Positions 41,418 through 54,896 of a DNA stretch of 64,000 nt are shown piece by piece. The stretch comes from Effusibacillus dendaii (GTDB lineage Bacteria > Bacillota > Bacilli > Tumebacillales > Effusibacillaceae). The stretch spans positions 1,922,001 through 1,986,000 of the forward strand of contig NZ_AP023366.1 in NCBI RefSeq assembly GCF_015097055.1, in the 5' to 3' direction. The stretch's first letter is position 1, and each line of letters starts with the position of its first letter. Made by a program: the position numbers and the translations under genes. The notes below the pieces were generated by a model that worked only from the letters and a program-made list of their open reading frames with translations, was not told the DNA's origin and ran no database searches.

Positions 41418-41440
41418 CGGTTTCAATTGAACCGATTCAT

Positions 41441-41489
41441 CAGTTTATTATGGTTGGCAAGGGTTTATTATTTATCTACAATTTCAACG
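41441..41489 (+). repeat. 49-bp direct repeat, left border of the CRISPR-Cas island
   Basis: Begins CAGTTTATTATGGTTGGCAA and ends TCTACAATTTCAACG; all 49 bases recur at 53437-53485 in the same orientation. The flanks differ on both sides, so the repeat ends are exact. It lies 33 bases before the leader-distal end of the array. Confidence 0.9.
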
Positions 41490-41522: not shown

Positions 41523-44013
41523 ATTTCAATCCACGCATCCGCGAGGGATGCGACGAAAATATCAACTGTATGTGATCCATCGAGCGTATTTCAATCCACG
41601 CATCCGCGAGGGATGCGACTTACACTGGTTGTTCAGGAATTGTTCGACCAAGCGGTATTTCAATCCACGCATCCGCGAGGGATGCGACTCTCGTTCTAGG
41701 ATGGCTTTACGGACTTTGGGAGAATTTCAATCCACGCATCCGCGAGGGATGCGACGTTTTGCAAACGACGGTCAGACCATGCTGCATGTATTTCAATCCA
41801 CGCATCCGCGAGGGATGCGACTCGCTTGGCATCTTTTCCCCTGACTCCACCTTAATTTCAATCCACGCATCCGCGAGGGATGCGACCAGCCACGTGTCCG
41901 GCTTGTGACGCTTCCAATCCATTTCAATCCACGCATCCGCGAGGGATGCGACGTCGGAGCAATACCTACTCGGCTGCCTTCTGCTAATTTCAATCCACGC
42001 ATCCGCGAGGGATGCGACAACTCGGCCACAAAGATACGATCCGGGAACATCCATTTCAATCCACGCATCCGCGAGGGATGCGACTTTTTCTGAGTACTCC
42101 AAGTGATTGGCGGCAAATATTTCAATCCACGCATCCGCGAGGGATGCGACGAACAACGGGTATTGTGTCTCTAAAAAATAATAATTTCAATCCACGCATC
42201 CGCGAGGGATGCGACTCTACATTTTCCTAATAGTTCCCCCGTTTTCTTTATTTCAATCCACGCATCCGCGAGGGATGCGACACTTTTTGAAGGACATCCG
42301 CGCGAGTGTCAAGGAATTTCAATCCACGCATCCGCGAGGGATGCGACGTGATTACTGTCATGGATAACGGTAGCCAATTTGATTTCAATCCACGCATCCG
42401 CGAGGGATGCGACTGCCGAATGGTTAATACCAAACCACTCGTACAGCCAAATTTCAATCCACGCATCCGCGAGGGATGCGACTCGTGTGAAATCGGTGCA
42501 AGTAACACTCGATAAAATTTCAATCCACGCATCCGCGAGGGATGCGACGTTGTTGTAGGTGGATTTGTTTGGTGGTTTGGACATTTCAATCCACGCATCC
42601 GCGAGGGATGCGACTGGCAAGTTTTGCTCTTGAGGATGGTGTCAAACCATTTCAATCCACGCATCCGCGAGGGATGCGACTCCCAAAACCGGTCATTTCG
42701 GCCAACCGCCGGACGATTTCAATCCACGCATCCGCGAGGGATGCAACGATCAACGTAAAGAAAAACTAACACAACGTTACATTTCAATCCACGCATCCGC
42801 GAGGGATGCGACTCGTCGTCAGATAGACCGATCAATTCTTCGTCTGATTTCAATCCACGCATCCGCGAGGGATGCGACAGTCACGACGACCCAATACCAG
42901 AGCGGTATCTTCGAATTTCAATCCACGCATCCGCGAGGGATGCGACCCGGTGGCCAGTTGGACAGCAGAAGAGATGTCGGTATTTCAATCCACGCATCCG
43001 CGAGGGATGCGACCCCATATACTGAGTCTCCTTTCTTGCAGTAGGTATTTCAATCCACGCATCCGCGAGGGATGCGACTACAACACGATTGTCGGCCGAA
43101 TCAAGATTTTGGAATTTCAATCCACGCATCCGCGAGGGATGCGACACTTCTCGTACTACTGGATTGCAGACCGACAAGATTTCAATCCACGCATCCGCGA
43201 GGGATGCGACAACAAAAGAACGTTTATAACGAGAATCCCGACAAATTTCAATCCACGCATCCGCGAGGGATGCGACGTTGTACTGCGTACTCTTGATATT
43301 TGTGTGGGATATTTCAATCCACGCATCCGCGAGGGATGCGACAGGATTTCGGCTGCTCACTCAGCCACTGTTCCAATTTCAATCCACGCATCCGCGAGGG
43401 ATGCGACGGTTAGACTTCTGACAGCCGGTGACAGGCTAAAGCTATTTCAATCCACGCATCCGCGAGGGATGCGACTGCGTATTTCTCTCTCCATTCTCGT
43501 TCCACGAAAATTTCAATCCACGCATCCGCGAGGGATGCGACCTCGATTCGCCTAGGATAGTGCTTCCAGAATTCCTCATTTCAATCCACGCATCCGCGAG
43601 GGATGCGACATCGGAGGCGACCAATATGGAACTCAACAAATATTGATTTCAATCCACGCATCCGCGAGGGATGCGACTCCCGCCTTTTTGAGTTTTTCAA
43701 TATAACCGGATTTATTTCAATCCACGCATCCGCGAGGGATGCGACGTTTGATGAGCGGCGGTTTGAAAAATCGTTTAATATTTCAATCCACGCATCCGCG
43801 AGGGATGCGACTCCCGCCTTTTTGAGTTTTTCAATATAACCGGATTTATTTCAATCCACGCATCCGCGAGGGATGCGACTACAGCAGGCTCAGCAAACAC
43901 AGCGGGCAGTTGCTATTTCAATCCACGCATCCGCGAGGGATGCGACGGTGCGATTCTAGCGGGAATAAAAATATTTCCGGTATTTCAATCCACGCATCCG
44001 CGAGGGATGCGAC
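41523..44013 (-). CRISPR. Type I-C CRISPR array, 38 repeats and 37 spacers
   Basis: 32-base repeats, read on the minus strand as GTCGCATCCCTCGCGGATGC plus GTGGATTGAAAT; stem CGCATCC/GGATGCG. Spacers are 33-37 bases. Orientation follows the type I-C rule (GTCGC at 5', ATTGAAAT at 3') and puts the leader at the high-coordinate end, beside cas2. Repeat 19 (42716-42747) has one change, GCAAC for GCGAC on the plus strand; all others I read are identical. One spacer occurs twice (43678-43713 and 43812-43847). Counted by eye; an error of one is possible. Confidence 0.98.
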
Positions 44014-44190: not shown

Positions 44191-44490
44191 CTACAATATC
44201 AAAGGGCCTTCTATATCAATTGACTCTTTCACACCAAAATGTTCTACCTTATTCTTGTAATTATTCCCCAATTGATAGAACCTAAGGCTGTCCTGCTCTT
44301 GATCTATAAGATCAAGGAGCTTTAACTTCAAAACAGTAAATTGAGTGGCGTCTACAACGCATTCAAACACTGAGTTTTGGACACGCTGGCCATAATTCTG
44401 GCATGCTTTAGAAACCAGACGCAGTCTCTTTTGACCTTCACTACTAACTGTGCTTACATCATACGTAATCAATACCAGCAGCTTTTTCAC
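44191..44490 (-). CDS. cas2: CRISPR-associated endoribonuclease/adaptation protein Cas2
   Basis: 99 residues. Ferredoxin-like start KKLLVLITYDVSTVSSEGQK with the metal Asp in TYDVST, then KACQNYGQRVQNSVFECVVD and LRFYQLGNNYKNKVEHFGVK. Structural partner of Cas1 in spacer integration. Last gene of the cas operon, directly adjoining cas1 (no gap) and the leader. Confidence 0.97.
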   Translation of the reverse strand: MKKLLVLITYDVSTVSSEGQKRLRLVSKACQNYGQRVQNSVFECVVDATQFTVLKLKLLDLIDQEQDSLRFYQLGNNYKNKVEHFGVKESIDIEGPLIL

Positions 44491-45522
44491 CTACTTCCAC
44501 AAAAAAGGTGGATACTCATCTAAATCATTACGCAAATAACGGGCTAATAGTAGGGCTTGTGCATGTGGGACTAACCCCCAGGAAATCTTCTCGCCAAGAT
44601 AGGGATGCGTGATTTTCTCTTGCTTCTTATTTTGCCATGCGGATAGAAACTTCTTTCTCGCCTCATCCCTCAAAATAACTGCACCGTTCTCTTTTTTTAA
44701 AAAATCTTCTTTGCTGACAATCTTCTTATTAATTAATGACAACACAAACTTATCTGCATAAACACCTCGCAGTTCCTCCATCATATCCAGCGCCAAAGAA
44801 ACGCGTCCCGGCCGGTCGCGATGCAAAAATCCAACATAGGCATCCAGTCCGACGCCTTCCAGCGCGGATGCCACATCATTCGCTAACAGCGAATAAGCGA
44901 ACGAAAGCATCGCATTCACGTTATCCAGCGGCGGCCTACGGGAACGCGAGTGAAAGTAAAAATCCTCTTTTTGCTGCAGGATCATAGTGTCGAATAGTTT
45001 GTTGTAGCTAATAGCCGCTTGTCCTTCCAGTCCTCTTAATCTTTCTAGATCTTCACAAGCTCTTACGTCTAAAATGATAGCGGATAGCTGCTGCGAAACA
45101 GCTTTGAAGCGGGCAACATCAATACGTAAAGGATAATCTCTGGTCATTCTCTCGATGATCCATTTGTGATTGTAGATCTTACCAATTATAAAATTACGCG
45201 CAATCTTCGCCGACAGGACCTCATCTTCCGATATATGATATTGTCTCTTCCTCAGGACAACATTACCCTTGCTTTCTCCAATGACTCGGGCCAGAAATCT
45301 GCCGTTCATGGTAAAAAAGACTAACGAGATATTGCGCTCTGCACAATATCCCATTAATGCCGGACTTGCACCGGTGTAACCAAATGCGATAATCGATTCC
45401 AGGTTGTGCAGAGGCAACCTGCCCAGCTTCTCCTGTTCCTTAAGCAGAACAATATTATCGCCGTCCAGCGACAAATAAACATCGGGCTGTGTAATAAACA
45501 GAGTATTTAGCAGCTTTTTCAT
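44491..45522 (-). CDS. cas1: CRISPR-associated integrase Cas1 (type I-C)
   Basis: 343 residues. N-terminal beta domain (LLNTLFITQPDVYLSLDGDN), catalytic alpha domain with the Glu of RGLEGQAAISYNKLFDTMIL, the His of GLDAYVGFLHRDRPGRVSLA, and the Asp of ALDMMEELRGVYADKFVLSL. Together with Cas2 (and Cas4) it cuts and inserts new spacers at the leader end. Starts inside the end of cas4 (4-base overlap). Confidence 0.97.
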   Translation of the reverse strand: MKKLLNTLFITQPDVYLSLDGDNIVLLKEQEKLGRLPLHNLESIIAFGYTGASPALMGYCAERNISLVFFTMNGRFLARVIGESKGNVVLRKRQYHISEDEVLSAKIARNFIIGKIYNHKWIIERMTRDYPLRIDVARFKAVSQQLSAIILDVRACEDLERLRGLEGQAAISYNKLFDTMILQQKEDFYFHSRSRRPPLDNVNAMLSFAYSLLANDVASALEGVGLDAYVGFLHRDRPGRVSLALDMMEELRGVYADKFVLSLINKKIVSKEDFLKKENGAVILRDEARKKFLSAWQNKKQEKITHPYLGEKISWGLVPHAQALLLARYLRNDLDEYPPFLWK

Positions 45523-46178
45523 TCCTTGATTTTCCCTTCAACGTAACTTCTAACGGTCCGTTTATTCATTAGCTCCGGCAAGCAAATATTTTGAAGGGAA
45601 CAGCTTCGGCAGAAAGGCCCGGTTTTCACTTTAGGCGTATGCCTGCGCTTATAATAGTCTTGCATTTCAGCAACAATCAACTTTACCTTGTTTTTAATAT
45701 CTGCAGTTAGCGAAACCTCAACTCTATGTTTGATCTCGTTATAAAACATATAGCCTGTACCTATGTCGCACAGCAGCATTTCCTCCAGACAGATGGCTTG
45801 TGCAGCTAGTTGTAAAATATCCTCATCGTTCAATTTCGGCTTTCCGCGTTTATATTCAACCGGATATGCGATGTATTTCCCTTCGGATCCACTAATTTCA
45901 ACACCGCTGTCGTTTCTTATAAACTCCACCACATCGCATATACCTGATATTTTAAGGTTCTCTGACCTCACAGGCATTGCGCGAACGATAAGCTTATCAC
46001 CCCGTTTCTCTCTTGTGAACGGCTGATCGGCATTTCGATGAAGGTACTTTCCCACGATGGTTCTGACGTTTTCTTCCCATTGCTGTTCAATATGGATTAA
46101 TGCCCACTGCCGTTTACAAAATTGAAAATGTTGTATACCGGACAACATTAAATAATCATCGTCTTCCTTATTGTCCAT
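45519..46178 (-). CDS. cas4: CRISPR-associated exonuclease Cas4
   Basis: 219 residues, RecB-like nuclease. The 4Fe-4S Cys are in LSGIQHFQFCKRQWALIHIE and KTGPFCRSCSLQNICLPELM; nuclease motifs include QPFTREKRGDKLIVRAMPV and YPVEYKRGKPKLNDEDILQL (Glu, Lys). In type I-C it trims prespacers and selects the PAM together with Cas1-Cas2. Overlaps cas7 by 11 bases and cas1 by four. Confidence 0.95.
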   Translation of the reverse strand: MDNKEDDDYLMLSGIQHFQFCKRQWALIHIEQQWEENVRTIVGKYLHRNADQPFTREKRGDKLIVRAMPVRSENLKISGICDVVEFIRNDSGVEISGSEGKYIAYPVEYKRGKPKLNDEDILQLAAQAICLEEMLLCDIGTGYMFYNEIKHRVEVSLTADIKNKVKLIVAEMQDYYKRRHTPKVKTGPFCRSCSLQNICLPELMNKRTVRSYVEGKIKE

Positions 46179-47028
46179 CTATGATCTCTACCTTCAAACC
46201 TTCCAAAGGCTGAACAGCAAACTTGTAATCTTTGAAGGACTTTGGTTCCTCTACGAGTCTTTCAACCGTTAAAGACCGATGTACTTTGGCCGAAGAATAC
46301 TGCCCGAGCTTGGAATTGTGTTCCCACCAATACACGGTGTGGACTTCCATGCTTCCTTCCGGTCTGGCTGACGACGCGTCGTTTTCGAATAAGGAAACTA
46401 GCGCATTCTTAAATTTCTCAGCATCTTCATTCGTAAATCCGGTTTTCTCAGCCAGCTGTGGATTTATACTGCCATAAAAGACGTAGACACCCGAATCTAC
46501 ACGATGCTTCATACCCATCGTATCCGAACCTTTTGCCGCACCCGGCTCGGAATTGACGCTTTTCGTAATTTGCAGGCTGGTAATGTCAATCGGATCGATA
46601 CTGGTTGCAGTATGAATGGAAACCGGACCCCGTATTCCAACAGAGACACCTGATCCCTTATCAGCTTTGAACGCAAATACCTGGCCAAAGCATCGGACAT
46701 CTAACCATGTCCGGCAAGCGATGTTGGCAAACTCATCGCCAGAACCTGTTTTAGACTTCAAAATTTTCTCCAGTTCGGGATTCGCCTCTGCACGCTCTCT
46801 TAAACTATTGTATGAATCGGACTTGCGATCGTTGGATTGGACAAAGATAGCTTCGCCCATATCCTGCAGACGGTTTCTAATTTTCCGTTTCAGCGCAACA
46901 TCGGATATCTCACCATAGCCATCGTAGTTTTGCCGCGGCCGATTGCCATTCAATGGATCACCATTCGGATTAGCCTTGGTTACGGATAACACAACTGCAA
47001 AATCAATTTTACGATCTAAAGTCGCCAT
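46168..47028 (-). CDS. cas7c: Type I-C Cascade backbone subunit Cas7 (Csd2)
   Basis: 286 residues. Family marks: IDFAVVLSVTKANPNGDPLN, GNRPRQNYDGYGEISDVALK (RNA-binding start), and DIAGYGPVSIHTA-like SVGIRGPVSIHTATSIDPID. Several copies line the crRNA; the thumb inserts between every sixth base of guide and target, so position 6, 12 and 18 of the guide are unpaired. It follows cas8c after 16 bases. Confidence 0.96.
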   Translation of the reverse strand: MATLDRKIDFAVVLSVTKANPNGDPLNGNRPRQNYDGYGEISDVALKRKIRNRLQDMGEAIFVQSNDRKSDSYNSLRERAEANPELEKILKSKTGSGDEFANIACRTWLDVRCFGQVFAFKADKGSGVSVGIRGPVSIHTATSIDPIDITSLQITKSVNSEPGAAKGSDTMGMKHRVDSGVYVFYGSINPQLAEKTGFTNEDAEKFKNALVSLFENDASSARPEGSMEVHTVYWWEHNSKLGQYSSAKVHRSLTVERLVEEPKSFKDYKFAVQPLEGLKVEIIDGQ

Positions 47029-47044: not shown

Positions 47045-47497
47045 TTAATTCGATGCTTCCACTACATCATGATTTTCTTTCTTCTGATAAAGTTCGTGCC
47101 GCTGACTATAAAATCCAAGCAAGTACAAACCCGATAATGGCTTATTATTAAACTGATCTACCGGAATTCGTGAAGCTACTTCATCAATAATTTTAGAGTA
47201 ATAGGTTCCCTTCTTTCCAAGTCGGGCTTGGTAAGGCTGCAAGCAGTCCTGGATGGTTTTCCAGGTTCTTGCCGGGCGATTGGAAAAAGCGTTCATATAA
47301 CGAATAGCATTGGTGGATCGGTTCTCATCGACGCTGTCTAACACACGTCTTTCCAAAACATCGGCGACAGCCAATAAACGGCCGAATAAGTAGTCACGGT
47401 TATTATTGTCCGTATCTAATGCCACATTGAATCCCTCCTGTCTGTTGATTAACGCGCATGTAATGCTGAGCGTCTTCTCCCATTCCCATTTCTCCAT
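47045..47497 (-). CDS. Possible internally translated small subunit Cas11c
   Basis: In characterised type I-C systems the small subunit is made from an internal start within cas8c. Here the matching place has an in-frame ATG (47497) giving [20 protein letters not shown] and about 150 residues. No clear RBS precedes it, so this rests on family knowledge more than on the sequence. Confidence 0.4.
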   Translation of the reverse strand: MEKWEWEKTLSITCALINRQEGFNVALDTDNNNRDYLFGRLLAVADVLERRVLDSVDENRSTNAIRYMNAFSNRPARTWKTIQDCLQPYQARLGKKGTYYSKIIDEVASRIPVDQFNNKPLSGLYLLGFYSQRHELYQKKENHDVVEASN

Positions 47498-48934
47498 CGA
47501 TACGGGGTTGGACGCACGGTGATAAGCACTGGTTACAATGTCTAACGGAATCTTCCGATCATCGATAATACATGGCAGTATTCGCTCCATTAGTCCTTTG
47601 ACAGTTTTGTCGCTTGCTCTTGGCCCGTAAGCAGCAAAAGCGATATCCTTCGTAGCCGGCGCCCCGAAAAATTGCACAAATTCACCATTGTCATTCTTAC
47701 GATACCGATGTAACCACGCACAGGTTGAATGCCATTTGGCAAGCCGGTCGAGGTAGAGCTCCTTGTCCATATTCCGATAGTACAGCACCGCCATACGCCC
47801 TGTTGTAGCCGAATCCAGTACCAAAATGTTCACATTCGCCTTTGACGACAACCGATTTCTATATCCGTCTAACGCTTTTGCCACTTCATCGGCGAACTCT
47901 TGATTGGTAAACGATATTCTCTCCTTGGTTGTAACAGGTGTTGGGTCTATGGAAAAATAATCCTCGGTAAGTCCCGGAACCTCAAGTTCATCATTGGCCC
48001 ATACTAGAAACACACGCTGATCAATAATTTTCCCCTGGCGATTAATGAGCCATTTCAAGGCATTATGGGCTTTTTGTGAAACTTCATAACTGATGCTTGC
48101 CGCTTCATGGCTAAGATTAAACCTCCCTCGAAAGGTAAAGCCGCTTTTGTCATTCGCCGAGATTAATTTGGCTTTATCTGCCGCATTTCTAATTTTATTC
48201 GCATGCTTGTCCGTACTTGGTAGCAATCTTCCCGTGACATAACAGAGATCCTCAACGCCTAACCGACTGCTGTAAAATCGGATGAAAGAATCGCATATCT
48301 CCTGATCCTTCCATACCTTTGTCAATATCTTTGTAGGAGAATAGACGTTAAAACGAACGAACGCACTGGTTTGCTCTCCACTAATAACAGAGAATATAGG
48401 CGGTTTCGCACCATACATAGCCTCGGCATTTTTGTCCCACTTGTCGATGAGTCGACCCGCGGCGTCCAAATATAAAATCTTGTGTTCAACTAAGTCCCGA
48501 ATGAGCTGTCCTTTGCTCAAATAGTGATAAATGCTCTTTACCTTGGCGACAGCATATGGAGAATTCGCCCAATCTTCCAGCTGTTTGATGTAATATGTAT
48601 AGGGCTCTTCTTTTTTAATTTCCCCGCCGTATGCCGCATAATCTCCCGCTACATAACTTAATTTATCATGCAGAGGATAGGGCGCAATGACGGCACCTGC
48701 GCGGCTTGCAGATTCTTCAGTACACGGAATCAAAGTGCTCGCATCACTCTTGTCAATCACACTCGCTGAATGAAATTCGCCATCTTCTGTTATCTCTACT
48801 TCGATGTGCGCATTTTGCGTTGTGTGGGAAACAGGAAGCAGCGTGTATTCTTGATCGTTATGTTTTTTTTCAATCTTGCCAACAAGGTCCAAATTCGATT
48901 CAAATGTTTCATACAAATTTAATAGCCAACTCAT
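47045..48934 (-). CDS. cas8c: Type I-C large subunit Cas8c (Csd1)
   Basis: 629 residues, usual for Csd1. Stretches: [60 protein letters not shown] and [20 protein letters not shown]. It recognises the PAM (TTC in type I-C) and recruits Cas3. The C-terminal 150 residues from [16 protein letters not shown] form the segment that in other I-C systems is also translated alone as Cas11c. Overlaps cas5c by four bases. Confidence 0.96.
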
Positions 48935-49653
48935 GGATTCCTCCCCTCCTCCAATTGTGTGAGCAGCTCATCCGCCGATACAACATTTGTTTCATCGAAA
49001 TGCTTCGGCTCCATATCCTTAATCATGCGAACCTGCGTGCACTGTTCGGGTCTAATAAATTGGATCACTCCATCCTTCATGACCGGATTCCATAGACGCA
49101 CTTCCAAATGGTTCCTGCCTGTTTCATCCGGATAATTCAAGCCATGAACCATGCTCCCCAGATGAAGCTCGCCATAGCCGTCATAAAACCCTTTCCCTTC
49201 TCCAAATACGCAAGGTTCAACATAAGCCTGACATTCCCTGGCTCCAAGAAAAATGTCTCTGCGACCACCAGCCTGGAGCGAACGTTTCAGGATATTGTGG
49301 TGCTTATGTTCGTTGCGGTCGTAGGCCATTTCCGGACGATTCATGTTGAACTCAAAATGGGCACGTACCTGGTAGCGAACATCTCTCAAATACGTATAGT
49401 TGGCAAGCGTATTTCCTCCACCGTACTCAATTGGACGAATACCCTTGGATTCCATACGGATCGGGTTCATGATACGGACTTCATCGACGACCATGATCAA
49501 TGTCGGCTTCCAATATATGGACTCTAGTATTCCCTTAAGCGCTTGATAAGTAGGCACTTGGTAGGAAAGCTTTTCCCCGCCAAGCTTAGTCAACGGGTCG
49601 GTAAATAACGCATACTCTCCATAAACAACAAATTCTATCGAATTCCTCATCAT
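48931..49653 (-). CDS. cas5c: Type I-C crRNA endonuclease Cas5c (Cas5d)
   Basis: 240 residues. RAMP fold: [60 protein letters not shown] and [20 protein letters not shown]. In type I-C, which has no Cas6, Cas5c itself cuts the repeat RNA, leaving an 11-base 5' handle. The catalytic region around YDRNEHKH is conserved. RBS AAGGAGGTGAG; the start may be ATG 49653 or the next codon. First gene of the cas5c-cas2 operon. Confidence 0.96.
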
Positions 49654-49689
49654 CTCACCTCCTTCCCATCCAACTTTTCTGACAATTCC

Positions 49690-49718
49690 ATATTACGCCA
49701 ATTCCAATTCACAGTCAA
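49690..49718 (-). promoter_or_regulatory. Sigma-A promoter of the cas5c-cas2 operon
   Basis: Minus strand TTGACT (49718-49713), 17-base spacer, TAATAT (49695-49690). The start would lie about 30 bases before the cas5c ATG. It is the only good promoter between cas3 and cas5c on this strand. A target site for the crRNA-like RNA stands one base upstream of the -35 box. Confidence 0.8.
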
Positions 49719-49719
49719 A

Positions 49720-49739
49720 TGCTTTACACATTATATGAA
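49720..49739 (-). promoter_or_regulatory. Predicted Cascade binding site (TTC PAM + 17-base protospacer) at the cas5c promoter
   Basis: Minus strand TTC (49739-49737) followed by ATATAATGTGTAAAGCA (49736-49720). The guide-like segment of the solo-repeat RNA is ATATAGTGTGTGAAGCA: equal at 15 of 17 positions, with differences only at 6 and 12 (and again at 18), the bases flipped out in Cascade. A full-size R-loop from this PAM would cover the -35 box. Confidence 0.85.
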
Positions 49740-49740
49740 T

Positions 49741-49769
49741 TTACCTTTGAATAGTGTGCATGATATAAT
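49741..49769 (+). promoter_or_regulatory. Extended -10 promoter of the crRNA-like RNA
   Basis: TGATATAAT (49761-49769) is a perfect extended -10 (TGnTATAAT). TTACCT (49741-49746) stands 17 bases upstream as a weak -35. Transcription would begin about 49775-49777, at the first bases of the repeat-like element. Confidence 0.75.
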
Positions 49770-49774
49770 GAATC

Positions 49775-49850
49775 GTCGCTATGTGCATAGCGTGGATTGA
49801 AAAATATAGTGTGTGAAGCAGAAACCTATCCTTAGATAAAGATAGGTTTC
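49775..49850 (+). ncRNA. Solo CRISPR-repeat-like RNA (putative Cas-regulating crRNA-like RNA)
   Basis: Plus strand GTCGCTATGTGCATAGCG (49775-49792) followed by TGGATTGAAA, compared with the array repeat: GTCGC and the 13-base GCGTGGATTGAAA are identical, the stem is different but still pairs (CGCTAT/ATAGCG, loop GTGC). The repeat-like part ends about 49803. Guide-like bases 49804-49820 follow, then a 10-bp hairpin GAAACCTATC/GATAGGTTTC (49821-49850) that can serve as 3' end for this RNA and, on the other strand, for cas3. Only one repeat is present, so cutting by Cas5c would give one crRNA-like molecule. CreA and CreR RNAs of other subtypes have this form; assignment here is inference. Confidence 0.8.
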
Positions 49851-49859
49851 TCGTCATCC

Positions 49860-52289
49860 TCAAAACATGCTCAAATCAAACCCGCTGTTATTTTCGAGAT
49901 CAAGGCCGTACTCCCCACTATAAGCACTTTCCTTCAGCGCTAATATTTTCCCATCAAGCAGACTTACCAACCCATTATTCTTCTCCAGTTGCTCCCGTTC
50001 CCAGGTAAACAGATTGATAGAATATTGTTGGGCCTTGCGCAGCAAGCGTGATAGATCCTCAATCGTTTCATTGCCGTTCAGCTGCGCAATAATGTCTTTG
50101 CCTTCATCGCCATAAGGGACAATAACAGATGTCGTATGGTCATCAATAACATGAAAGTTTTCTGCTGCGGTTCGATAACTATTCACGATAAATAATGGCA
50201 GGCTTTCCTTCTTATCCTGTGAATAGGCTATATTATACGAGTTGTGTTTCCTATCAGACGCCAATAACTCTATCATTTCCTTCTTTAATTTCCGTATATA
50301 ATAATTCAAACTCGAACTGAACTCTGTATAAAACTCCTTAAAATACCTTTCCATTGCCTGAGCAGATAAAATATTGCCGCCATGATGGTTCTGATCGCGC
50401 TTGAGATCGACGAGAATCCGCTTGGACAGTTTTTTCCCAACTTTTATTTCCTGCAAATGATCCAGATTCTCCTCTACATGATCAATAACATAAACCTCCT
50501 GAATCTCCTGCTCCCCATGACGGTTGCATCTGCCGGCAGCTTGGGCAATGGAATCCAGTCCCGCCAAAGAGCGAATCACACAATCAAAGCTTACATCTAC
50601 TCCGGCTTCGATCAATTGGGTGCTGATGCATATGACTTTTTCATTATTCACAAGATGTTCTCTCACTTGTCCCAAAATGTGATTCCGATGCGCGGCGCAC
50701 ATCGATGTGCTTAAGTGATAAACGGGCACATCACTCCCTTCCATTTGACGGTATAACCTCTTCACAACCGTTTTCGTATTCAAAATAACAAGCACACTCT
50801 GAACCTCGCCTATTTTCTCCACTATAAAATCGGCAAGCTTGTCATTGTTAAACGTCTCTTCCGTTGCTTTATCGACTATTTCCACCCGTTTAAATGCTTC
50901 AATTACGCGATCAAGGTTCTGAATGATTTCAGCGTCCGCGTTTATTTCCAGCTTATGCTCGACAAAATCCAGAGCGGGCTGAGTTGCGGTGCAAAGAATG
51001 AGGCTGGAATGGCCATAAGTTTTCAAAAAATTCAGCGTCTGATTAAATAGCGATATGCATTTGGTTGGAACCTTCTGCACCTCGTCAAAAATAATGACCG
51101 ACTCGCTTAAATTATGAAGCCTCCGTATATTCCTGCTGCCTTTGGCATAGAACACGTTCAAAAACTGCACCATCGTCGTAAAAATAATCGGTGAATCCCA
51201 GTTATCCTTGGCCAACTTTAACTTTTGTTGCGTATTGATTATGCCATCTTCGTTCTCGTCGTCATCATCCAAATCATCGATGACGTTTGAATGGTGCTCG
51301 AGAATATGTCCGTCATCCATTAAAATTTTGCGTACTTCTTCTGCGTTTTGTTCTATTATCGTTGTGTACGGGACTACATACACGATGTGCTTTTTGTTAT
51401 ACAGGCCGGCATGCTTAAGCGCATATCTTAAACTTGCTAATGTCTTACCGCCGCCAGTTGGAATCGATAACGTATAGATCCCCGATGGCTTCTCCGCAAA
51501 CCGGCCGCACTGATCCGACATTTCTCTCCTAAGCGCATTTATTTGTGTTTTTGCAGCGTCTTGAACTTGGTAGGAGTCAATCTTTTCCATCAGTTTTTCA
51601 TAATATGCATCAAACAGCTCCTTGCGGCTCGGTTCCGGTTCCACGGTCTTATTTTCTTCAAATAATCTGGTGTTCGTTCGATCGGCATCTATCAAAGCGC
51701 TAAAAATAAATTTGGTTAAGAACATCAGCTTACTTTCACTATTCCCCGAATAGGGTTTCATCAGATAAGCTTCCAATTCATCTACTGCTTTAGAAACATA
51801 TTGCTGAAATTCCGCCTCACTCATCACATGGTCAAAAAAGCACTGCTTCGACCTGTCAAACTCTTTTAATTCGAATTCGTTTTTTTGAACGCGTCTCAAG
51901 TAGGGTGACTCCAGATCCGGATTTAAAAAATCGTGAAGATAGGAATGGTGCGATATAATAGCGTTTCCAACGACTTCGGCCAGAATCCAATTAAGTCTGG
52001 AAGGAGCCCCTGTATGAAACAGTTGATATAATAACTTCCCCCCCGCCGTTGAATGGTCAACACTTCCTCTCTTCGGCGGAGAATCCGGATTTTTTACAGC
52101 TTCTATGATGTATTCTCTAAATTCATGGGTGTACTTACCCATATCATGAAGCATCCCTGCAAGACCTGCTATATGCCTGACTCCAACCTTCTCCCCGAAT
52201 GATTCCGCCAAATCCTTTACTCCAAGCAAATGCTCCTCGACGCTCTGAATCTGTTTGTCACTTTCACGGATATGGGCGATGTACTTCAT
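49860..52289 (-). CDS. cas3: CRISPR-associated helicase-nuclease Cas3
   Basis: 809 residues. HD nuclease domain first: HLLGVKDLAESFGEKVGVRH, GMLHDMGKYTHEFREYI (HD pair), VVGNAIISHHSYLHDFL. Helicase: IYTLSIPTGGGKTLASLRYA (Walker A), SVIIFDEVQKVPTKCISLFN (DEVQ where most have DEVH/DEAH), CTATQPALDF, ISTQLIEAGVDVSFDCVIRS and AQAAGRCNRHGEQEIQ. It unwinds and degrades DNA marked by Cascade. RBS AGGAGGGATATA. Separated from cas5c by 206 bases with its own closing hairpin, so it is a separate transcript. Confidence 0.97.
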   Translation of the reverse strand: MKYIAHIRESDKQIQSVEEHLLGVKDLAESFGEKVGVRHIAGLAGMLHDMGKYTHEFREYIIEAVKNPDSPPKRGSVDHSTAGGKLLYQLFHTGAPSRLNWILAEVVGNAIISHHSYLHDFLNPDLESPYLRRVQKNEFELKEFDRSKQCFFDHVMSEAEFQQYVSKAVDELEAYLMKPYSGNSESKLMFLTKFIFSALIDADRTNTRLFEENKTVEPEPSRKELFDAYYEKLMEKIDSYQVQDAAKTQINALRREMSDQCGRFAEKPSGIYTLSIPTGGGKTLASLRYALKHAGLYNKKHIVYVVPYTTIIEQNAEEVRKILMDDGHILEHHSNVIDDLDDDDENEDGIINTQQKLKLAKDNWDSPIIFTTMVQFLNVFYAKGSRNIRRLHNLSESVIIFDEVQKVPTKCISLFNQTLNFLKTYGHSSLILCTATQPALDFVEHKLEINADAEIIQNLDRVIEAFKRVEIVDKATEETFNNDKLADFIVEKIGEVQSVLVILNTKTVVKRLYRQMEGSDVPVYHLSTSMCAAHRNHILGQVREHLVNNEKVICISTQLIEAGVDVSFDCVIRSLAGLDSIAQAAGRCNRHGEQEIQEVYVIDHVEENLDHLQEIKVGKKLSKRILVDLKRDQNHHGGNILSAQAMERYFKEFYTEFSSSLNYYIRKLKKEMIELLASDRKHNSYNIAYSQDKKESLPLFIVNSYRTAAENFHVIDDHTTSVIVPYGDEGKDIIAQLNGNETIEDLSRLLRKAQQYSINLFTWEREQLEKNNGLVSLLDGKILALKESAYSGEYGLDLENNSGFDLSMF

Positions 52290-53200: not shown

Positions 53201-53436
53201 AACACCCCCCCGCGAACCCGCATTCTTCCGTCCCCGCTTTTCCCCAATTAAAATAAAGTCTTGCACAACTCCCGCATTTTCTCGATTTTTGATTCCACTT
53301 GTTCTATCAGAACTTTATTCTTGTAAAAATAAAGTCGTGATAAAAAAACGGGCTTAAGGCTTGATCGGATGGGGTTTCCCCTTTTTCCTCTCTCCTTATT
53401 CCCGCTCTTTATCAAAATTTATTTTGATTTTGGCAA
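53201..53436. other. Non-coding stretch inside the right border of the CRISPR island
   Basis: AT-rich sequence with two copies of AAATAAAGTC (about 53252 and 53325) and no supported gene. It ends at the right 49-bp repeat. Confidence 0.4.
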
Positions 53437-53485
53437 CAGTTTATTATGGTTGGCAAGGGTTTATTATTTATCTACAATTTCAACG
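53437..53485 (+). repeat. 49-bp direct repeat, right border of the CRISPR-Cas island
   Basis: Exact copy of 41441-41489 in the same orientation. Its last 14 bases are the last codons and the stop of rlmD (minus strand), a normal position for an attachment site in the 3' end of a gene. Confidence 0.9.
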
Positions 53486-54896
53486 ACATCGATACCACAC
53501 ACTCCACATGAAACGTATGCGGAAACATATCGACCGGTTGCACCTGCTGCGTCTGATACCCCCGATCCTCCAAATACCGAAGATCCCGCGCCAACGTACT
53601 CGGATTGCAGCTTACGTAGACGACTCGTTTCGGCTGCATATCGACAATCGTCTGCAGCAGCGCCTCGTCACACCCTTTGCGCGGCGGGTCCACGACAACC
53701 ACATCTGCCCGCAGTCCCCGCTTCGCGTAAAGCTCCGGGATCACCTTTTCCGCCTGCCCTACCAGAAACTCCACATTCTCGATGCCATTCAAAGCCGCAT
53801 TTTTCTTCGCGTCTTCAATTGCATCGGCCACCACTTCCACGCCCACGACCCGCTTCGCCTTCTGTGCCAGGAACAACGAGATCGTACCAATCCCGCAGTA
53901 TGCGTCGATCACTGTTTCATCACCCGTCAACCCCGCATACTCCAGCGCCTTCTGGTACAGGACTCCAGTCTGGATCGGATTCACCTGAAAAAACGACCGG
54001 GCCGAAATCGAAAATCGGATATCCCCAATCCGGTCCTCAATCGTGTCTTTTCCCCACAAAGTGATCGTATCGGGCCCAAAAATCACATTGGTAACCGCCG
54101 CGTTTACATTCTGAATGATCGACACCAGGTGGGGAATCTCATCTCGTAACCGCGAAACCAACTCATCGATATGCGGGATTTTTCGTCCGTTTGTCACCAG
54201 CACGACCATCGTCTCATCCGTGTGGAAACCGACGCGCGCCACAATATGACGCACCAGTCCTTTTCGCGTTGCCTCATCATACGGTGAAATCCTCAAGTCG
54301 CCCAGAATCCGTTTCACCCGACTGACAATCTCATCACTGTACGGGTGCTGGATCGGGCAGCCTTCCATATCGATAATCTCATGCGTCCGCGGCGCATAGA
54401 ATCCGGCCACAATCCTGCCGTCCACCCATCCAACCGGGACTTGCGATTTGTTGCGATATCTCCAAGGATCCTGCATGCCAAGCGTAGGGTAAACGGGAAT
54501 CGCATCCCCTTCTTCCCCACCCGGCGCCGATTCCAGCCTTACCGCAAACTTCCCTATCCGCTGCAGGGCATCGGCCACCATCTGCTGTTTGTGCTCTAAC
54601 TGCCCTTCATAAGACATATGCTGCAGATGGCAGCCGCCACAGCGGTGATACACAGGACAAAGCGGTTCCGTCCGGTGGTGGGACGCTTCCAGAACTTCAA
54701 GCAGTCTCCCATAAGCAAAGCTTTTCTGTACTTTGACAATCTTTGCTTTTACCCGTTCCCCTCGTATCGCACCGGGAACAAAGACGGCAAATCCTTCATA
54801 TCGCCCGATGCCTTCCCCTTCGTGCCCTTGGCCGGTAATGTCGAGCTCGATATATTGATTTTTCTCTACCGGAACATTCGTCGTCGCTTTCGCCAT
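53472..54896 (-). CDS. rlmD: 23S rRNA (uracil-C5)-methyltransferase RlmD/RlmCD
   Basis: 474 residues. TRAM domain (YIELDITGQGHEGEGIGRYE), Fe-S Cys in LCPVYHRCGGCHLQHMSYEG and EGCPIQHPYSDEIVSR, SAM domain VIDAYCGIGTISLFLAQKAK, VVVVDPPRKGCDEALLQTIV, and the nucleophilic Cys in VYVSCNPSTLARDLRYLED. It methylates U1939 (and U747 in the Gram-positive RlmCD type) of 23S rRNA. The stop lies in the 49-bp repeat, so the very end of the protein (MSLKL) is shaped by it. gene_symbol by family; RlmCD is equally possible. Confidence 0.93.
   Translation of the reverse strand: MAKATTNVPVEKNQYIELDITGQGHEGEGIGRYEGFAVFVPGAIRGERVKAKIVKVQKSFAYGRLLEVLEASHHRTEPLCPVYHRCGGCHLQHMSYEGQLEHKQQMVADALQRIGKFAVRLESAPGGEEGDAIPVYPTLGMQDPWRYRNKSQVPVGWVDGRIVAGFYAPRTHEIIDMEGCPIQHPYSDEIVSRVKRILGDLRISPYDEATRKGLVRHIVARVGFHTDETMVVLVTNGRKIPHIDELVSRLRDEIPHLVSIIQNVNAAVTNVIFGPDTITLWGKDTIEDRIGDIRFSISARSFFQVNPIQTGVLYQKALEYAGLTGDETVIDAYCGIGTISLFLAQKAKRVVGVEVVADAIEDAKKNAALNGIENVEFLVGQAEKVIPELYAKRGLRADVVVVDPPRKGCDEALLQTIVDMQPKRVVYVSCNPSTLARDLRYLEDRGYQTQQVQPVDMFPHTFHVECVVSMSLKL

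Follow-up and report, generated by a model that had tools for sequence, protein, structure and literature searches.

Introduction

The name CreR is said to stand for the cas-regulating RNA of Liu et al. 2023 (Cell Host Microbe). Standalone repeats and mini-arrays with spacers partly matching cas promoters were reportedly found, mostly in type I and V-A loci, by Shmakov et al. 2023 (NAR); these crRNA-like regulatory elements resemble the element examined here in having a standalone repeat and a guide that partly matches a cas promoter. In type II-A, a natural single-guide RNA reportedly directs Cas9 to the promoter of its own cas genes, a case attributed to Workman et al. 2021. Unlike the system in our window (the whole stretch of 64,000 nucleotides from Effusibacillus dendaii that was analyzed), this type II-A autoregulation belongs to class 2 and relies on a single effector and a tracrRNA-derived guide.

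CreR has been reported for types I-B, I-E, and V-A (PMC13131331), and PMC12737573 describes it as widespread in type I and V-A, a range that could include I-C, with crRNA competition and anti-CRISPRs as the triggers of release. For CreA (CreTA, type I-B), guide bases 6 and 12 are free and bases 1 to 5 and 7 to 11 are needed (PMC8501985). According to the same paper, the CreA of H. hispanica has one repeat and a terminator, which is a precedent for a compact single-repeat layout, and repeat degeneration is common to CreA-type elements (PMC9458426). Type I-C is described as being among the commonest CRISPR subtypes (PMC7684278), and its repeat is processed by Cas5 (PMC10651486).

Our literature search returned no type I-C CreR; an earlier listing by Liu et al. 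2023 or Shmakov et al. 2023 is possible. Here, we describe a plus-strand element at 49740 to 49850 that, judging from its sequence, is highly likely to encode an RNA of the CreR type, under whose guidance type I-C Cascade would repress its own operon. What we observe directly is the anatomy of the element, its PAM, the uniqueness of its target site, the coevolution of guide and target, and the periodicity of their pairing.

The type I-C locus and the candidate guide RNA gene

On its minus strand, the window contains a complete type I-C locus, in which cas3 (49860 to 52289; TIGR01587/TIGR01596) lies upstream of cas5c (48931 to 49653; TIGR01876), the first gene of the operon proposed to be controlled. 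The latter continues with cas8c (csd1; 47045 to 48934; TIGR01863), cas7 (csd2; 46168 to 47028; TIGR02589), cas4 (45519 to 46178; TIGR00372), cas1c (44491 to 45522; TIGR03640), and cas2 (44191 to 44490; TIGR01573), and an array on the same strand (41523 to 44013) holds 38 repeat copies, 37 of them exactly GTCGCATCCCTCGCGGATGCGTGGATTGAAAT, at a spacing of 65 to 69. All seven Cas proteins exceed the cut-offs of their models, four of which are I-C models, and the gene order cas3-cas5c-cas8c-cas7-cas4-cas1c-cas2 is that of type I-C, without cas6. Moreover, no match to Cas6 of the TIGR01877 family was found in the whole genome; 7 of 14 control genomes have one.

The entire CRISPR-Cas locus is bracketed by a 52-bp direct repeat (98% identical; 41438 to 41489 and 53434 to 53485), the right copy of which overlaps the 3′ end of a gene for a TRAM-domain uracil-5-methyltransferase (53472 to 54896, minus strand; Pfam). 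Attachment sites of integrated elements often overlap gene 3′ ends in this way. In the three other genomes of the genus examined, the methyltransferase gene is present and a Cas5c match is absent. In addition, a perfect but isolated 32-base CRISPR repeat lies at genome positions 2853559 to 2853590 (L183, 360 to 391), about 0.9 Mb from the array. It sits between two short reading frames, the first without a Pfam match and the second with a weak match to alpha/beta-hydrolases that falls short of the Pfam cut-off, and it may have arisen through off-target spacer integration.

Between cas3 and cas5c, a small plus-strand element combines a promoter-like sequence, a degenerate repeat, a guide, and a hairpin, and runs convergently with cas3. 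The predicted guide RNA promoter (TTTACC-18-TATAAT, with TG before the −10; 49740 to 49769, plus strand) is a consensus match only, as is the predicted cas5c promoter described below; since the consensus scan gave 3 promoter-like sites versus 1.4 in shuffles, both are weak evidence when taken alone. A TATAAT-like element precedes the repeat in many relatives, as judged by eye. The degenerate I-C repeat (49775 to 49803, plus strand) comprises a 6-bp stem, a GUGC loop, and, at its end, the 11-nt handle UGGAUUGAAAA (also given as TGGATTGAAAA; 49793 to 49803). The 17-nt guide ATATAGTGTGTGAAGCA, recomputed from the window, occupies 49804 to 49820 (plus strand) and is directly followed by a hairpin (49821 to 49850, plus strand), a putative terminator common to the convergent cas3 end, which has a weak T-run and is absent from the terminator scan output. 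As in CreR, a standalone degenerate repeat with a crRNA 5′ handle is thus found outside the array and beside the cas operon. When the window RNA is folded, its lowest-energy structure pairs the repeat with the guide and lacks the repeat stem, a competition that argues against easy processing of this RNA. A search of Rfam across 49600 to 50000 gave no match at an E value of ≤1.

The guide (49804 to 49820) is identical in 15 of 17 positions to the minus-strand sequence ATATAATGTGTAAAGCA (49720 to 49736, positions 1 to 17 being counted from 49736 downward), with mismatches only at positions 6 and 12, and in the window the identity stops at position 17. This protospacer-like site is flanked by the PAM TTC (49737 to 49739, minus strand). 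The predicted cas5c promoter (TTGACT-17-TAATAT; 49690 to 49718, minus strand) has its −35 at 49718 to 49713, starting at protospacer position 19, and the target ends one base earlier. Only 36 nt separate the −10 (49690) from the cas5c start codon (49653). In the manner of CreR, the guide is partly complementary to the cognate cas promoter beside the PAM of the subtype, the promoter being assigned by consensus only. An earlier note on this DNA had put forward the 15-of-17 match with its two mismatches, the TTC at 49739 to 49737, and the one-base distance to the −35, and recomputation from the window reproduces all three. It had also placed the −35 of the RNA promoter next to the bound complex: the contact holds, as this −35 abuts the PAM, and its first base is 49740 in our consensus scan instead of 49741.

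When the 3.45-Mb genome was scanned for the PAM and positions 1 to 16, with positions 6 and 12 free and at most two mismatches, the window site was the sole match. In 1,600 block shuffles made from 80 upstream regions, a handle with a TTC-flanked match arose twice, with a net score of 9, and none scored above this; the same scoring gives 14 for the window.

Guide and target in related loci

From a Cas5c search, the best 80 of 223 loci were retained, nearly all of them Bacilli by record titles. The 79 cas3-cas5c gaps analyzed are those of 78 named loci with cas3 upstream and of the window; L058 was omitted because it has no DNA upstream, and L075 because its cas3 was not found. We defined a carrier as a gap with an antisense element whose guide has a TTC-flanked match in at least 12 of 14 positions (1 to 5, 7 to 11, and 13 to 16); positions 6 and 12 played no part in the choice. 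Such an element, with degenerate repeat, handle, guide, and hairpin, is present in 35 of the 79 gaps, with match scores of 14/14 in 26, 13/14 in 8, and 12/14 in 1, and the other 44 gaps are without it. On a tree of Cas5c and Cas8c, carrier presence requires 22 changes versus a shuffled mean of 26.4 (40 of 1,000 shuffles being as low). Because of this scattered presence and of the 44 gaps without a match, the element is not required for type I-C. The gap measures at least 182 nt in all 34 named carriers. Among the 78 named loci, 41 have a gap of at least 180 nt, and the 37 with narrower gaps all lack a matched element there.

Since the 35 pairs were chosen for matching, the coevolution figures given below are inflated, and a PAM-blind test served as the unselected check. 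All handle-like sequences (at most one mismatch) in the 79 gaps were collected, and the best site for each was picked without a PAM rule. Among the 42 hits (39 antisense and 3 sense), 35 guides have a best site of at least 12/14, preceded by TTC in 35 of 35, whereas the remaining 7 guides reach at most 11/14, with TTC before 0 of 7. The PAM was therefore recovered unasked in all 35 matched loci, and the earlier note's expectation that relatives with the element keep the match is borne out by 35 of the 39 antisense handle-like hits. In three loci (L004, L022, and L078), the antisense handle is exact but there is no site; the other four unmatched guides follow one-mismatch hits, one of which, in L039, is the fourth antisense hit without a site. 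The repeat stem of L004 looks decayed, the gap of L022 is only 108 nt, L071 and L080 look decayed by eye, and in L059 the target site is on the other strand.

Guides fit their own targets with a mean of 13.7/14, versus 9.8/14 for the targets of other loci, and in 15 loci at least one foreign target fits the guide equally well. The best promoter-like −35 starts at protospacer positions 14 to 29 in 31 of 34 loci, and the per-locus cas5c promoter score is at least 9 in 29 of 34 versus 40% of shuffles, that is, modestly above shuffles.

Across the 35 pairs, each of positions 1 to 5, 7 to 11, and 13 to 15 shows zero or one mismatch. At the variable positions 8, 10, 14, and 15, mismatches number 0, 1, 1, and 0 versus 20.3, 22.3, 17.3, and 21.9 under independence. 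Position 6, by contrast, has 31 mismatches (expected 30.0) and position 12 has 24 (expected 26.0). Position 16 is intermediate (6 versus 20.7 expected), and positions 17 to 20 have 19, 20, 25, and 18 versus 23.7, 20.9, 23.5, and 20.7. Since the latter are near independence, conserved pairing ends near position 16, and position 18 carries no information; the proposal in the earlier note that position 18 is a further flipped-out base does not hold, as all of positions 17 to 20 mismatch at the same chance level. The pattern kept by evolution in these pairs is that of the base requirements of CreA, with 6 and 12 free.

The co-variation that had been predicted for relatives is also seen on the tree. 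Over 13 positions (1 to 5, 7 to 11, and 13 to 15), 58 guide changes are reconstructed, of which 50.1 have a mirrored target change on the same branch (200 independent reconstructions), or 54.5 of 58 when seeds are shared (100 reconstructions). The exceptions are position 6, with 14 guide and 6 target changes and none mirrored (0 of 14 in both reconstructions), and position 12, with 9 guide and 15 target changes, about 1.5 of them mirrored. At position 16, 2.1 changes are mirrored, out of 9 in the guide and 14 in the target. Guide and target are thus kept together in relatives, as in CreR. These data also bear on the idea that the elements are relics or off-target repeats, functionless leftovers that are alike by descent, with which the target-less copies in L004, L022, and L078 and the decayed appearance of L071 and L080 would agree. 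Neutral descent would not give 50 of 58 mirrored guide changes while positions 6 and 12 stay free, and unrelated guides in other loci (see below) obey the same rule, which makes this explanation exceedingly improbable.

The RNA anatomy is conserved as well. A stem of at least 4 bp adjoins the handle in 31 of 35 elements versus 36% of shuffles, and one of at least 5 bp in 22 of 35 versus 14%. In an alignment of 20 hand-picked rows, from which 15 of the 35 (less clean stems or near-duplicates) were excluded, changes on both sides occur in 3 of 5 pairs (equaled by 15 of 500 shuffles), 97% of cells pair versus 88% when shuffled, and the covariation score is 0.345 versus 0.175; the count of pair types is less striking, being reached by 57 of 500 shuffles. 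The hairpin starts near guide position 16 (median first paired base), with a mean fold energy of −17.3 versus −6.3 when shuffled, which implies a guide of about half the array spacer length. The first paired base comes later in L030 (21), L050 (22), and L063 (24), and the main stem of L038 is also further on.

This anatomy raises the question of a CreA-like antitoxin, whereby Cascade with the guide RNA would repress a toxin and the cell would depend on its CRISPR system. The likeness is close: a degenerate repeat, a partial match over a seed of positions 1 to 5 and 7 to 11, a TTC PAM, and free sixth and twelfth bases (PMC8501985). Furthermore, in Paenibacillus alvei (L039, 2551 to 5000), frames of about 220 aa, one of them with a DUF4062, lie between the promoter predicted to be guide controlled and cas5c, so that other genes may share the same RNA-guided control. 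However, whereas CreA represses a toxin RNA, the target in the window is the cas5c promoter, and the conserved pairing extends through positions 13 to 16. The 36 nt between this promoter and cas5c leave no room for a toxin gene; none lies under the promoter, the next gene being cas5c, which rules out the toxin reading for the window. Since the whole gap is also below 300 nt in 26 of the 34 named carriers (it is wider in L008, L009, L011, L028, L038, L039, L056, and L077), we consider an antitoxin role extremely unlikely.

Transposase reading frames lie within two of the wide gaps (L008, 4205 to 4510; L056, 2873 to 4795). A transposase label in L014 was dropped, as it has no Pfam match.

Proposed mode of action and significance

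In our preferred reading, that of a CreR-type autorepressor, the guided defense complex very probably switches its own cas genes down, a statement drawn from sequence comparison. For this locus, we infer processing, Cascade loading and binding, repression without cleavage, and derepression, as follows. Cas5c would bind and cut the degenerate repeat, giving an RNA with the 11-nt handle and about 17 nt of guide, the 3′ end of which would be set by the hairpin instead of by another repeat. Once loaded with this RNA, Cascade would cover the cas5c −35 by binding the TTC-flanked site, with guide positions 1 to 5, 7 to 11, and 13 to 16 paired and 6 and 12 unpaired, and would thereby block transcription of cas5c-cas8c-cas7-cas4-cas1-cas2. 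Because the match is short, Cas3 would not be triggered. The promoter would open whenever Cascade ran short, was taken up by array crRNAs, or was trapped by an anti-CRISPR.

Our analysis supports the interpretation of the earlier note, in which Cascade carrying this RNA blocks its own operon; CreR, the known class concerned, goes unmentioned in the note. Lowered transcription on Cascade binding, the lack of cleavage, and release on a shortage of Cascade or crRNA or under anti-CRISPR attack would be its consequences here, and these steps have been described for other subtypes (PMC12737573 and PMC13131331). The element resembles CreR in being a crRNA-like RNA whose guide partly matches a cas promoter, and CreR autorepression answers to crRNA and anti-CRISPRs (PMC12737573, PMC13131331, and PMC12948488). 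Unlike the CreR of types I-B, I-E, and V-A, it belongs to type I-C and has one repeat, a guide of about 17 nt, and a hairpin as its 3′ end.

It is plausible that the guide RNA represses its own promoter as well. A more elaborate model, which we offer tentatively as quite possible, is that type I-C loci of Bacilli have a distinct single-repeat CreR, whose terminator-cut guide of about 17 nt would be fixed at a length allowing binding without a Cas3 attack on the chromosome. A single complex over the cas5c −35, abutting the −35 of the RNA gene, would then act as a two-way homeostat for Cascade and for its regulator.

If the CreR-type reading is true, RNA-guided self-repression extends to type I-C, with processing by Cas5, not Cas6, and occurs frequently among Bacilli. 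The 35 pairs of guide and target would form a natural mutation series in which Cascade reads bases 1 to 5, 7 to 11, and 13 to 16 and ignores 6 and 12. Moreover, the carrier promoters would be a ready set that anti-CRISPRs should derepress, and they could act as anti-CRISPR sensors.

Wider sample, viruses, and plasmids

Among 398 genomes sampled from the phylum of the window, 103 have Cas5c, with 105 matches in all: 69 were scanned (9 of these with only 1.5 kb on either side of the match), the window accounts for 1, and the remaining 35, for the most part the weakest, fell outside the scan. Five of the 69 scanned loci (L153, L161, L165, L167, and L170) have a handle and a TTC-flanked match of at least 13/14. 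Their guides are unrelated to those of the 35 carriers and mismatch at position 6 in 5 of 5 and at position 12 in 4 of 5. When seven other trinucleotides replaced TTC as a control, there were no hits at 13/14 or above and five at 12/14. The element lies between cas3 and cas5c in L161 and L170 and upstream of cas3 in L153, L165, and L167; in L165, TTGACG-17-TACAAT comes after the site and before cas3. In L165 and L167, as in the window, site and guide are on opposite strands; in L153, L161, and L170 they share a strand, and the layout of these three therefore differs from that of the window.

Several other candidates were rejected. In L051, which has a narrow cas3-cas5c gap, an element upstream of cas3 (near 1766) has a 14/14 match flanked by CTC, not TTC. 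The last array spacer of L082 (2131 to 2260) has a 13/14 match with TTC, which is not above the background at whole-locus scale (4 for TTC and 0 to 4 for each of nine other trinucleotides). The matched site lies about 110 bases downstream of this spacer, between the array and cas3, and the spacer looks like a precursor of such a regulator. On plasmids, no matched element was found in the 6 examined of 48 records: in L184, a handle is present and the best site is no higher than 10/14. The Lysinibacillus and Lacticaseibacillus plasmids L185 and L188 carry I-C loci with no cas3 listed in the stretch, for which the gene table is incomplete.

A solitary repeat could also serve as a decoy or brake, tying up Cascade or Cas5c in the manner of the viral Racr (RNA anti-CRISPR), the promoter match being secondary. 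In a prophage, a solitary I-C repeat acts as a Racr (PMC10651486), and among the 57 stretches of viral contigs in which we found the I-C repeat pattern, solitary or as an array (L192 to L248), 51 are single copy. A decoy would need no guide-target pairing, yet the pairing is conserved, and the window element lies inside a host cas locus, not on a virus or mobile element away from cas. We therefore regard a decoy as very unlikely and retain the CreR-type reading. A relaxed pattern for viral copies aimed at the cas5c promoter gave two near-identical viral stretches; the one checked lies within a 445-aa reading frame and was for this reason taken as a chance match. As judged by eye, the single-copy viral repeats often stand just before a reading frame, resembling published RNA anti-CRISPR candidates.
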